Shown here in pieces: positions 9,075 to 42,557 of a stretch of 64,000 nucleotides of DNA. The DNA comes from Gemmatimonadota bacterium (GTDB lineage: Bacteria > Gemmatimonadota > Gemmatimonadetes > Gemmatimonadales > Gemmatimonadaceae). The translations under genes were made by a program, and so were the position numbers. The stretch lies in contig PLCA01000005.1 of the NCBI GenBank assembly GCA_003134685.1, positions 186,001-250,000 of the forward strand, in the 5' to 3' direction. The notes under the pieces are model-generated. The model saw nothing but the letters and a program-made list of their open reading frames with translations, ran no database searches and was not told the origin of the DNA. How positions within the stretch are numbered: the first letter of the stretch is position 1; every line of letters starts with the position of its first letter.

Positions 9075-9307
9075 TCATACGTTTCCAGAGGCTGGATTGG
9101 GCGTCGGACCCAGCATCCGGGATCGTTCGGTGAGCTCTGGGCGATCGACGAGTATTCAATTTAAGTGGTGGAATGTAATTATGGACTGCACATAGGCTTA
9201 TAGATTTGCCTTAACGTAATATCTGATCTGCTGTTTGTACCAATAGTTACACTTTCCCTGTTCAGATAGTCAAATTCTTGTTACGCGCCCAGCTCAGCAA
9301 TAGGGCG
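9075..9307. other. AT-rich intergenic region upstream of the riboswitch
   Basis: The stretch is clearly AT-rich between about 9150 and 9290 compared with neighbouring genes. It should hold the promoter of the riboswitch-controlled gene. A TTACAC box followed by TCAAAT at 17-base spacing is the best candidate but is weak. No gene, terminator or repeat was recognised. Confidence 0.35.
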
Positions 9308-9406
9308 CCTCCGATAACCGGCAAAACCGCCTAAAGGCGGCGACGCAAAGCCCCGAGACTAAAGCGACGCGCAAGCTACGCCACGTCAGTCGAGCTACCG
9401 AAGAGG
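9308..9406 (+). promoter_or_regulatory. Cyclic di-GMP-I (GEMM-I) riboswitch
   Basis: The aptamer hallmarks are all present. These are GGCAAAACC (9320-9328), a P2 hairpin ACCGCC-taaa-GGCGG, the conserved GACGCAAAGCC core (9342-9352), ACTAAAG, and the closing AGTCGAGCTACCG (9388-9400). They match the GEMM-I pattern. The outer stem pairs CCTC (9308-9311) with GAGG (9403-9406). GAGG is also the Shine-Dalgarno of the ATG at 9412. Stabilising the aptamer would therefore be expected to hide the ribosome binding site and lower translation; this direction is an inference. Confidence 0.92.
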
Positions 9407-9411
9407 ACCTG

Positions 9412-10566
9412 ATGACCTATTCTCGCTTCAGATTCAGCCTGGCCGTACCGACCTTCCTCATTCTTACGGCGATCATTCCGCCGACCCCTGCGAGCGCTTT
9501 GCAGCTCTACTCGCTTGGCGGTCGGACGGGCTCGAATGCTGTCGCGAATCACGTTGACTCGCTCCCCACGGTCGCGTCTTCGGGTGGTGCCGCATCGTTG
9601 GCTGCTGCCGCGGCCTCGGACAGCAGCGTCTCGACTGCAGCCGCAAAGATCCTCTTTTCGCCCGCGGGCGAAAAGGGCAGCGGCCTGAGCGGAAAGGTCT
9701 TCGCCCGGTTCGTCATGCCTGAGGACTGGATAGCCCTCGCGTCCATTCCGGGAGCTTCAGTCGCCAGCGCCTCCGTCTCGGCTGCCAGCCCTGGCGCCGA
9801 GACCGTGTTCACCATGCGCTCGTTCGGGCAGAAGGTCCGGCAGTGGCTGAACGGCTACCGGCTCGGATACTGGCCACAGGAGAAGGGCCGCGTGCGATCG
9901 GAAGCCTACAAGAATCCAGACGGCTTCATCGAAGTGACCCCCGACAATGAAGACACGCGGGTGTCCGAGCATTTTCGCCTGAGGGACTTCGTCTCCCACG
10001 ACCAGAAAGATGTCTGGCCGAAGTACGTCGTTTTACGGGAGCCGCTCCTCGACAAGCTCGAGCTCGTAATCGAGGACCTCAACGATCATGGCGTGAACGC
10101 CGAGGGCTTGCGGATTCGCTCGGGGTTCCGGACGCCGGCTCACAACTTCGCCGTCCGCGGCGAGGGAAGCGCCCGCGATAGCCGGCACCAGTTCGGCGAT
10201 GCCGCCGATGTCTACATCGACCAGGAAGGGAACGGGAAGATGTCGGACCTCAATGGCGACGGAAAGGTCAGCTTCGCCGACGTGAAGATGATCCTGGATG
10301 CTGTCGAGCGAGTCGAGGCACGCTATCCCGAGCTCGTCGGAGGCACAGGCCTCTATGCTTACGCAGGTCGCAGTGGTCCATTCGTCCACATCGATGTGCG
10401 CGGTGTTCGCGCCCGTTGGGTTCGCGGCGTGTACAAGGGCCGCTCGCGCCGAGTCGTGAGAAGCCACAAGACCACTCCTAAGATTTCGAAGGCGCTACCG
10501 GCCAGCAACACGGTGGCCAGGAGTGCCTCGACGACCCGCGGAAGGACGTCAGCGACACCGGAGTAA
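9412..10566 (+). CDS. Secreted M15-type peptidase (D-Ala-D-Ala carboxypeptidase-like) with calcium-loop insert
   Basis: The product is 384 aa with a signal peptide ending PASA (about residue 30) and an Ala/Ser-rich low-complexity region to about 130. The catalytic domain spans about 180-350. Zinc and catalytic motifs of the M15 fold are visible: SGFRTPAHN, RHQFGDAADVYID near residue 258 (His and Asp ligands) and HIDVRG near 326 (second His). Between them sits DLNGDGKVSFADV, a dockerin/EF-hand-like calcium loop. The family cleaves D-Ala-containing peptides of peptidoglycan. The C-terminus is basic. It follows the c-di-GMP riboswitch directly, so expression probably changes with the motile/sessile signal. 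Confidence 0.8.
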   Translation: MTYSRFRFSLAVPTFLILTAIIPPTPASALQLYSLGGRTGSNAVANHVDSLPTVASSGGAASLAAAAASDSSVSTAAAKILFSPAGEKGSGLSGKVFARFVMPEDWIALASIPGASVASASVSAASPGAETVFTMRSFGQKVRQWLNGYRLGYWPQEKGRVRSEAYKNPDGFIEVTPDNEDTRVSEHFRLRDFVSHDQKDVWPKYVVLREPLLDKLELVIEDLNDHGVNAEGLRIRSGFRTPAHNFAVRGEGSARDSRHQFGDAADVYIDQEGNGKMSDLNGDGKVSFADVKMILDAVERVEARYPELVGGTGLYAYAGRSGPFVHIDVRGVRARWVRGVYKGRSRRVVRSHKTTPKISKALPASNTVARSASTTRGRTSATPE

Positions 10567-41022: not shown

Positions 41023-41040
41023 CCCAAGACAACTGAAGAC

Positions 41041-41096
41041 CCTGTGGTAATTTGCCGCGTATTGCAGCCACGTTAAATAAATGCTAAAAAGCGAGG
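41041..41096 (+). promoter_or_regulatory. SAM-II riboswitch
   Basis: The leader reads TGTGG-TAATTTG, then ATTGCAGCCACGTTAAATAA and GCTAAAAAGC, the conserved SAM-II (metA) pattern. P1 pairs TGTGG (41043-41047) with CCACG (41068-41072). The H-type pseudoknot uses the AATTTG and TTAAAT segments and the GCTAAAAAGC end. SAM-II binds S-adenosylmethionine and lowers expression of methionine genes. The downstream hom-metX-metB operon fits this exactly. GAGG follows at once (41093-41096), but no start codon is near it, unlike many known members. Confidence 0.92.
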
Positions 41097-41134
41097 AACG
41101 CCCGCGGCCACATAGCCACGGGCGTTCTGCTTTA
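41096..41134 (+). terminator. Terminator-like hairpin downstream of the SAM-II aptamer
   Basis: GAACGCCCG (41096-41104) pairs with CGGGCGTTC (41119-41127). An inner GGC/GCC extension closes a CACATA loop, and the weak tail TGCTTTAT follows. It lies between the aptamer and the hom start at 41163. It could be a SAM-dependent attenuator. The U-tract is short, so termination efficiency is uncertain. Confidence 0.5.
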
Positions 41135-41162: not shown

Positions 41163-42557
41163 ATGACTCCCCAGCAGCTCGAGATCGACCCCACGCGGGC
41201 GCTCCACGACTTTCCCATTGTTTCCGCGGGCGCACGCAGCAACACAGGCCTTCCGAAATTCACATCCCGCCGGAAAGCCGCAGCTACAACCTCCGCCGCT
41301 TCCGTCGACACGCCGCGAACAATCCGCGTCGCTCTCGCCGGATGCGGTGTCGTCGGTGGCGGCCTCGTGCGGCTTCTCCACGAGTCCGCGCCCGCAATCG
41401 CGGCCCGCTTCGGCGTCCGCTTCGATCTCACGCGAGTGCTGGTGCGTGATCTCAGTCGGGAGCGCAATCTGCCCCTCGACTCGCGGCTCTTTACGAACGA
41501 CCTCGATGCCTTTCTCGCTCACGATTTCGACGTGATCATCGAGGCGGTCGGCGGCAACGAGCCGGCGCGAACGATCGCGTCCGCCGCGCTCAAGCGCGGA
41601 ACGAAAGTCATTACGGCCAACAAGGAGCTTGTCGCCGCGCATGGCGACAGTCTTTCGGCGCTCGCTCGCGAACACGGCGCCAGTCTCGATTTTGGCGCGG
41701 CGGTAGGCGGAAGCGCCCCGGTGATTTCGACGCTGCGGGATCTGGTCGGCGCCTCCACACCACTGTCTGTGTGCGGAATCCTGAACGGAACGTCGAACTA
41801 TGTCATATCCCTGCTTGAGCGCGGCGCGAGCCTCGATGGCGCCCTCGCGTCTGCGCGCGAGCGTGGCCTCGCCGAGGCTGACTGCGCCCGCGATCTGGAC
41901 GGGCGGGATGCGGCGGCGAAGCTCGCCATCATCGCGTGGATCGCATTTGGCATACGCCCAGCCGACCTCCACGTTCGCCGGACGCCATTGGTACCGGGCC
42001 TGGAGCGCCTCGTGCGATTTGCGACGATCACGGGCGCGCGCCTCCGTCTTATCGCCGAGTGTACCCGGCTGCCCGGAGACCGTGTAACGGCTTCAGTCGA
42101 GCCCGTGATCGTTCATTCGGAGAGCGCGTTCGGGCGAACAGTTCTCGAGGAAAATCGAGTCGAAGTGGATCTTGGCTGGCGCTCGCCGCTGAGCGTATCC
42201 GGCCCGGGTGCCGGCGGGCCTCCAACTGCCGCGGCGCTGTTGGGTGATTTGCTCAGGGTCTCGCCGCCCCCCAACGATCGGGGGCCAGGTGCCACACAGT
42301 TTCTCTCCGTCGCTGACCCGCGTGAACATCGTTGGCTCGTCGTGGCTCACCTCGATGCAGTTGCACTGCAACGAACTTCAACGGCGGTCGGGCTTCGTTC
42401 CGAGCGCTGCGCCAGCGAGGGGGCCGACGCGGCGCTGATTACCGCTCCCGCATCCTGGAAATCCGCGCAGCGTCTGATTGCCGCGCTGGATTCGTTGAGC
42501 GCGGCGCCTTTGGTTGCTCGATACGAGACTTGCAAGGAAACGGAGGTGCTCCAATGA
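41163..42557 (+). CDS. hom: Homoserine dehydrogenase
   Basis: The product is 464 aa. The Rossmann motif GCGVVGGG is at 60-67, ITANKELVAAHG follows, and the catalytic region is CGILNGTSNYVISLLE with AEADCARDLDGRDAAAKLAI. It reduces aspartate semialdehyde to homoserine. The first 51 residues are an extension without family homology (MTPQQLEIDPTRALHDF onward). There is no good SD before ATG 41163, so a later start is possible. The C-terminus has a partial extra domain instead of a clear ACT domain. It heads hom-metX-metB behind the SAM-II riboswitch. Confidence 0.9.
   Translation: MTPQQLEIDPTRALHDFPIVSAGARSNTGLPKFTSRRKAAATTSAASVDTPRTIRVALAGCGVVGGGLVRLLHESAPAIAARFGVRFDLTRVLVRDLSRERNLPLDSRLFTNDLDAFLAHDFDVIIEAVGGNEPARTIASAALKRGTKVITANKELVAAHGDSLSALAREHGASLDFGAAVGGSAPVISTLRDLVGASTPLSVCGILNGTSNYVISLLERGASLDGALASARERGLAEADCARDLDGRDAAAKLAIIAWIAFGIRPADLHVRRTPLVPGLERLVRFATITGARLRLIAECTRLPGDRVTASVEPVIVHSESAFGRTVLEENRVEVDLGWRSPLSVSGPGAGGPPTAAALLGDLLRVSPPPNDRGPGATQFLSVADPREHRWLVVAHLDAVALQRTSTAVGLRSERCASEGADAALITAPASWKSAQRLIAALDSLSAAPLVARYETCKETEVLQ

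Follow-up and report, generated by a model that had tools for sequence, protein, structure and literature searches.

The closest described systems are class I riboswitches for cyclic di-GMP (c-di-GMP). Vc2 of Vibrio cholerae switches translation OFF, with the stem P1 as the key element (PMC9262584). The class I switches of C. difficile are OFF switches, too, including one in front of the gene encoding the zinc metalloprotease ZmpI (PMC6200980). In the genome of a soil bacterium of the Gemmatimonadota (contig PLCA01000005.1, positions 186,001 to 250,000 of the forward strand; this whole stretch of 64,000 nucleotides is referred to as the window) an aptamer of the same class, c-di-GMP-I or GEMM-I, lies directly in front of a gene encoding a putatively secreted M15 peptidase (Table 1). 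The arrangement is probably a translational OFF switch: binding of c-di-GMP would stabilise P1, mask the Shine-Dalgarno (SD) sequence and repress translation of the peptidase. The element resembles Vc2 in aptamer class and in its predicted translational OFF control centred on P1 (described for Vc2 in PMC9262584), but here the SD is itself a strand of P1, the target gene is another one and the GNRA loop is replaced. Cdi-1-12 of C. difficile (target ZmpI, PPEP-1) is likewise a class I switch in front of a secreted zinc metallopeptidase, there repressed by c-di-GMP (PMC6200980). A lower transcript level was measured in that case, whereas an effect on translation is predicted here, and the substrates of ZmpI are surface adhesins. 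In the open-access literature we found no papers combining c-di-GMP, riboswitch and peptidase M15, and nothing relevant on c-di-GMP riboswitches in Gemmatimonadota. The locus adds a conserved member to a known type of switch, with a target gene of a kind not described for it before.

Table 1. Features of the riboswitch and its target gene (positions in the window)
Feature	Position	Strand	Remark
5' hairpin P0, GCGCCC/GGGCGC (9285-9290 with 9303-9308)	9285-9308	+	flush with P1, common base C9308 only
P1 5' strand CCUC, SD complement	9308-9311	+	
c-di-GMP-I (GEMM-I) aptamer	9310-9402	+	Rfam cmscan RF01051
P1 3' strand GAGG, identical with the SD	9403-9406	+	invariant in aligned leaders
M15_2/DUF882 zinc peptidase, signal-peptide-like N-terminus, 384 aa	9412-10566	+	
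EF-hand-like 12-residue loop DLNGDGKVSFAD, residues 279-290	10246-10281	+	

A first-pass annotation of the window had proposed a complete GEMM-I aptamer and a covariance-model scan as a check. The scan confirmed this: RF01051 was matched at 9310-9402 over the complete model (positions 1-87, which do not include P1) with 63 bits (E 5.7e-10), compared to a gathering score of 35 bits. The motifs GGCAAA, GACGCAAAGC and ACCGAA can all be read in the aptamer, and in the alignment of the close set P2 and P3 show changes on both sides. Judging by these motifs and the Vc2 sequence, we take G9321, the central A in GCAAAGC and C9398 to be the equivalents of Vc2 G20, A47 and C92. In Vc2 numbering, G20, A47 and C92 are ligand contacts (PMC11218506).

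The two strands of P1 are fully complementary. GAGG is separated by 5 nt from the ATG at 9412, and the end of the aptamer by 9 nt. The first-pass annotation had placed the ribosome binding site within a P1 strand, with coordinates that proved correct, and had regarded aptamer folding and translation as mutually exclusive. This is supported: because the SD serves as the P1 3' strand, P1 cannot physically be closed while the SD is open. P1 of Vc2 starts one mismatch past the CCGA of the binding pocket, and CCUC/GAGG occupies this canonical P1 position.

Of the 179 family genomes, 161 encode M15 proteins of this peptidase family and 123 contain GEMM-I aptamers. Within the window's genus, aptamer and M15 gene are coupled in at least 13 genomes (G000, G002, G004, G005, G006, G007, G008, G009, G011, G012, G013, G014 and G017); one genome of another genus (G020) has an M15 gene with a sub-threshold aptamer (33.8 bits). 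Judged from these sequences, the link between riboswitch and secreted M15 peptidase is conserved genus-wide. The close relatives of the window genome are metagenome-assembled genomes of Gemmatimonadetes, and the window's own genome contains further M15 matches without an aptamer. Orthologues share 75-96% protein identity, and their leaders have the ORF (open reading frame) start and the GAGG after CCGAA as in the window. The CCUC/GAGG P1 is present in eight leaders. Both strands are invariant in an alignment of seven (the G014 orthologue, L005, is left out owing to an assembly gap), compared to 25 of 117 positions (21%) in the DNA upstream.

Directly in front of P1, the same alignment revealed the conserved hairpin P0, a new element which the first-pass annotation had not noticed. 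Its arms are invariant at 6/6 positions and 9303-9314 at 12/12, against the 21% of the upstream DNA. Compensatory changes in P0 are absent in the close set; more distant members have the stems GCCCG/CGGGC, GCCGGC/GCCGGC, CCGGC/GCCGG and CCCG/CGGG in its place. When P1 was constrained to form in folding, a P0 of 5 bp persisted, stacked right below it, and P0 therefore appears to be a stacking partner rather than a competitor. P0 as an anti-P1 switch was rejected for the window, as only C9308 is common to both stems and the two coexist in the constrained fold.

Folding energies were obtained with a nearest-neighbour model, which is blind to ligand and tertiary contacts. In this model ligand-free P1 has a probability of about 0.003 in the window and its closure costs about 5 kcal/mol, an amount that a ligand bound at nanomolar concentration could pay. 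Across the eight leaders, forcing P1 costs between 0 (G017) and 7.7 kcal/mol (G004). Plain minimum free energy folding was rejected as structural evidence (z-score 0.72, no better than shuffles). We infer ligand binding, the OFF sign and a coaxial role of P0 as follows. At low c-di-GMP the P1 of 4 bp would be unstable, the SD accessible and the M15 peptidase produced and exported. When c-di-GMP is high, the three-way junction would be locked by the ligand and P1 would close with P0 stacked beneath; the 30S subunit would then be kept off the SD and the peptidase would not be produced.

Several observations weigh against this model. For G017, the energy calculation has P1 closed even without ligand. 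In the free ensemble of the window the final SD base is mostly paired (unpaired 0.11), meaning that the ligand-free SD is incompletely open. The more distant orthologues of G006, G007 and G013 do not pair in the canonical P1 register; they could only form a shifted pairing that involves the 3' arm of P0, and such a P1 may be in competition with P0 there. Their SD is nevertheless at the same position as in the other leaders. P1 of G012 is AAACC/GGUUU, with an overlap limited to the last two G of the SD. Since these four deviate in P1 pairing, it is the SD right after CCGAA that is the constant feature, and burial of the SD by canonical P1, as read from the alignments, applies to the clade of the window and to G004. 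P1 covariation is absent in the close set, too, as P1 never varies among the eight leaders. Covariation is silent on P1 because it is invariant there and the three distant members lack it in register; the case for the predicted P1 rests on complementarity, conservation and position. Finally, the lost GNRA tetraloop of the clade might weaken binding (see below).

It is unlikely that the switch, though genuine, acts mainly on the mRNA (by transcription attenuation, access of Rho or RNases, or stability), with burial of the SD being incidental. Intrinsic terminators do occur at other GEMM-I switches of the genome (C15:58005) and of the order (several), a conserved 5' hairpin such as P0 is of a type able to protect mRNA 5' ends, and Bc1 and Vc2 work at multiple levels (PMC11218506, PMC6200980). 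Between aptamer and gene, however, no terminator-like site was found on the plus strand, and with just 9 nt from the end of the aptamer to the ATG a separate expression platform does not fit.

The P2 loop of the window aptamer is UAAA instead of GNRA, which had been overlooked in the first-pass annotation. We examined about 105 GEMM-I aptamers of the order, and 88 of the 97 with an assignable tetraloop have a GNRA loop. A non-GNRA loop is found in 7 of the 8 aptamers of the window's M15 clade, where it is NAAA, compared to 2 of the 89 others (Fisher p 2e-8, overstated, as the aptamer sequences are related and not independent). Within this survey the loss of the tetraloop G is specific to the M15 clade; the G alone is replaced and the three loop As are retained. 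A GNRA loop and its receptor define type I aptamers (PMC11218506). The window RNA lacks this loop on P2 and is nonetheless accepted by the covariance model; the GNRA loop is a sub-type trait.

The missing G could also indicate that the aptamer of this clade is degenerating or weak and does not respond at physiological c-di-GMP. The 63 bits of the window aptamer are below the 75-82 bits of its best relatives, and in G008 one base beside the G20 position is missing. We regard this as still less probable than an action on mRNA: the remaining aptamer, P0, P1 and the SD are strongly conserved among orthologues of the stated divergence, and the As that are kept are those whose alteration eliminated binding in Cd1 (PMC9262584). 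An ON switch, in which the ligand frees the SD through alternative pairing, is very improbable even though the free ensemble shows partial pairing of the final SD bases and ON-type GEMM-I switches are known (pilM, PMC9262584), as the SD itself is a P1 strand and the M15 leaders showed no stable conserved anti-SD partner besides P1.

The target of the proposed translational OFF switch matched Peptidase_M15_2 (DUF882, 31.2 bits, cut-off 27) and Peptidase_M15_3 (23.7 bits, cut-off 23.2) in Pfam. The residues of the expected M15 zinc site, H259, D266 and H326, are invariant across 32 homologues. The signal-peptide-like N-terminus was judged by eye. ZmpI is not known as an M15 protein. The AlphaFold model of the peptidase is confident across the domain; its best fold match is the zinc DD-carboxypeptidase 1lbu (Z 9.1, 121 residues, 3.4 A), followed by M15 endopeptidases (L-Ala-D-Glu) and then hedgehog domains, whose fold is the same as that of M15 proteins. 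A direct sequence search of the PDB with the peptidase gave no match. MepK-like M15_2/DUF882 proteins and 1lbu have the same pattern of zinc ligands (H-x6-D and a later H), but the window peptidase has an EF-hand-like insert and is far under the cut-off of the NCBIfam MepK equivalog (NF053624, L,D-endopeptidase; 23.6 vs 185 bits). Of the first-pass description as an M15-type D-Ala peptidase, the family stands by Pfam and zinc ligands. D-Ala is too specific; as cleavage specificity cannot be read from family and fold matches, it is only one option. The calcium loop described there corresponds to DLNGDGKVSFAD, whose end residues D279 and D290 are invariant across the 32 homologues; Pfam EF-hand and Dockerin match the loop below threshold only. 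The peptidase may have a role in wall/matrix or envelope remodelling.

Most of the aptamers examined in the order lie either 16-30 nt upstream of the start codon of a lipoprotein or Ig-like-domain gene or in front of an intrinsic terminator. In most M15 leaders the ATG follows the conserved CCGAA after 9-12 nt, compared to 16-30 nt in most other lipoprotein-class GEMM-I genes. An SD within P1 is found in a minority, consisting of the M15 genes, a receiver-GGDEF-like gene and STAS-like genes (the latter two names assigned by eye). The receiver-GGDEF-like gene has this layout in 5 genomes including that of the window, where the aptamer lies at L070 6542-6631 (G000:C15:51542-51631, minus strand). 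In the STAS-like genes, from another family (G039, G058, G060), GGAGG occupies the same slot. The GGDEF-like domain encoded by the second SD-in-P1 gene of the window's genome lacks the GGDEF motif, and negative feedback of this gene on the synthesis of c-di-GMP is therefore not supported. For the lipoprotein/Big_2 class, ON control through an anti-SD located in the 3' strand of P1 was likewise rejected; good cases are few and there is no excess over shuffles (0.35 vs 0.37, 29 leaders).

Leaders of the lipoprotein/Big_2 class (e.g. L002, L071) often have the motif CGGCAGGATCGC just 5' of the aptamer and, alongside, a CCUCC..GGAGG-like hairpin. In L161 (G037:C36), L147, L150 and L170, two or three GEMM-I aptamers of a CGCTGCTCAGAGCAAA sub-type follow one another in tandem and often precede terminator-like GGCGGC-T runs. 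Upstream of the M15 leader, the synteny of a Big_1 gene is kept in close relatives. An AGTAAC-like and an AGTTAC box (window 9218-9250) are conserved upstream of the eight leaders, where the DNA has diverged otherwise, and may represent a site for a promoter or regulator. A scan for sigma-70 promoters found none. Elsewhere in the window, a SAM_alpha (SAM-II) riboswitch (41034-41106, 38.6 bits, cut-off 36), followed by a hairpin-forming stretch, precedes an ORF at 41163, by eye a homoserine dehydrogenase; an alpha/beta-hydrolase-like ORF is next.

Tentatively, these switches might represent a compact GEMM-I sub-type of the Gemmatimonadota, in which the SD forms one strand of P1, a hairpin lying flush on the 5' side acts as a brace, the M15 clade dropped the GNRA loop to retune affinity, and the OFF targets are few (the M15 peptidase, a receiver-pseudo-GGDEF protein and STAS-like proteins of other genera). 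If true, the switch would use the simplest possible expression platform, and aptamers with GNRA and NAAA loops would offer a natural series for probing the effect of loop docking on c-di-GMP sensing. In a phylum whose signalling has been little studied, c-di-GMP would then have a direct link to a secreted peptidase of the envelope, in parallel to the secreted metalloprotease that c-di-GMP represses in C. difficile.
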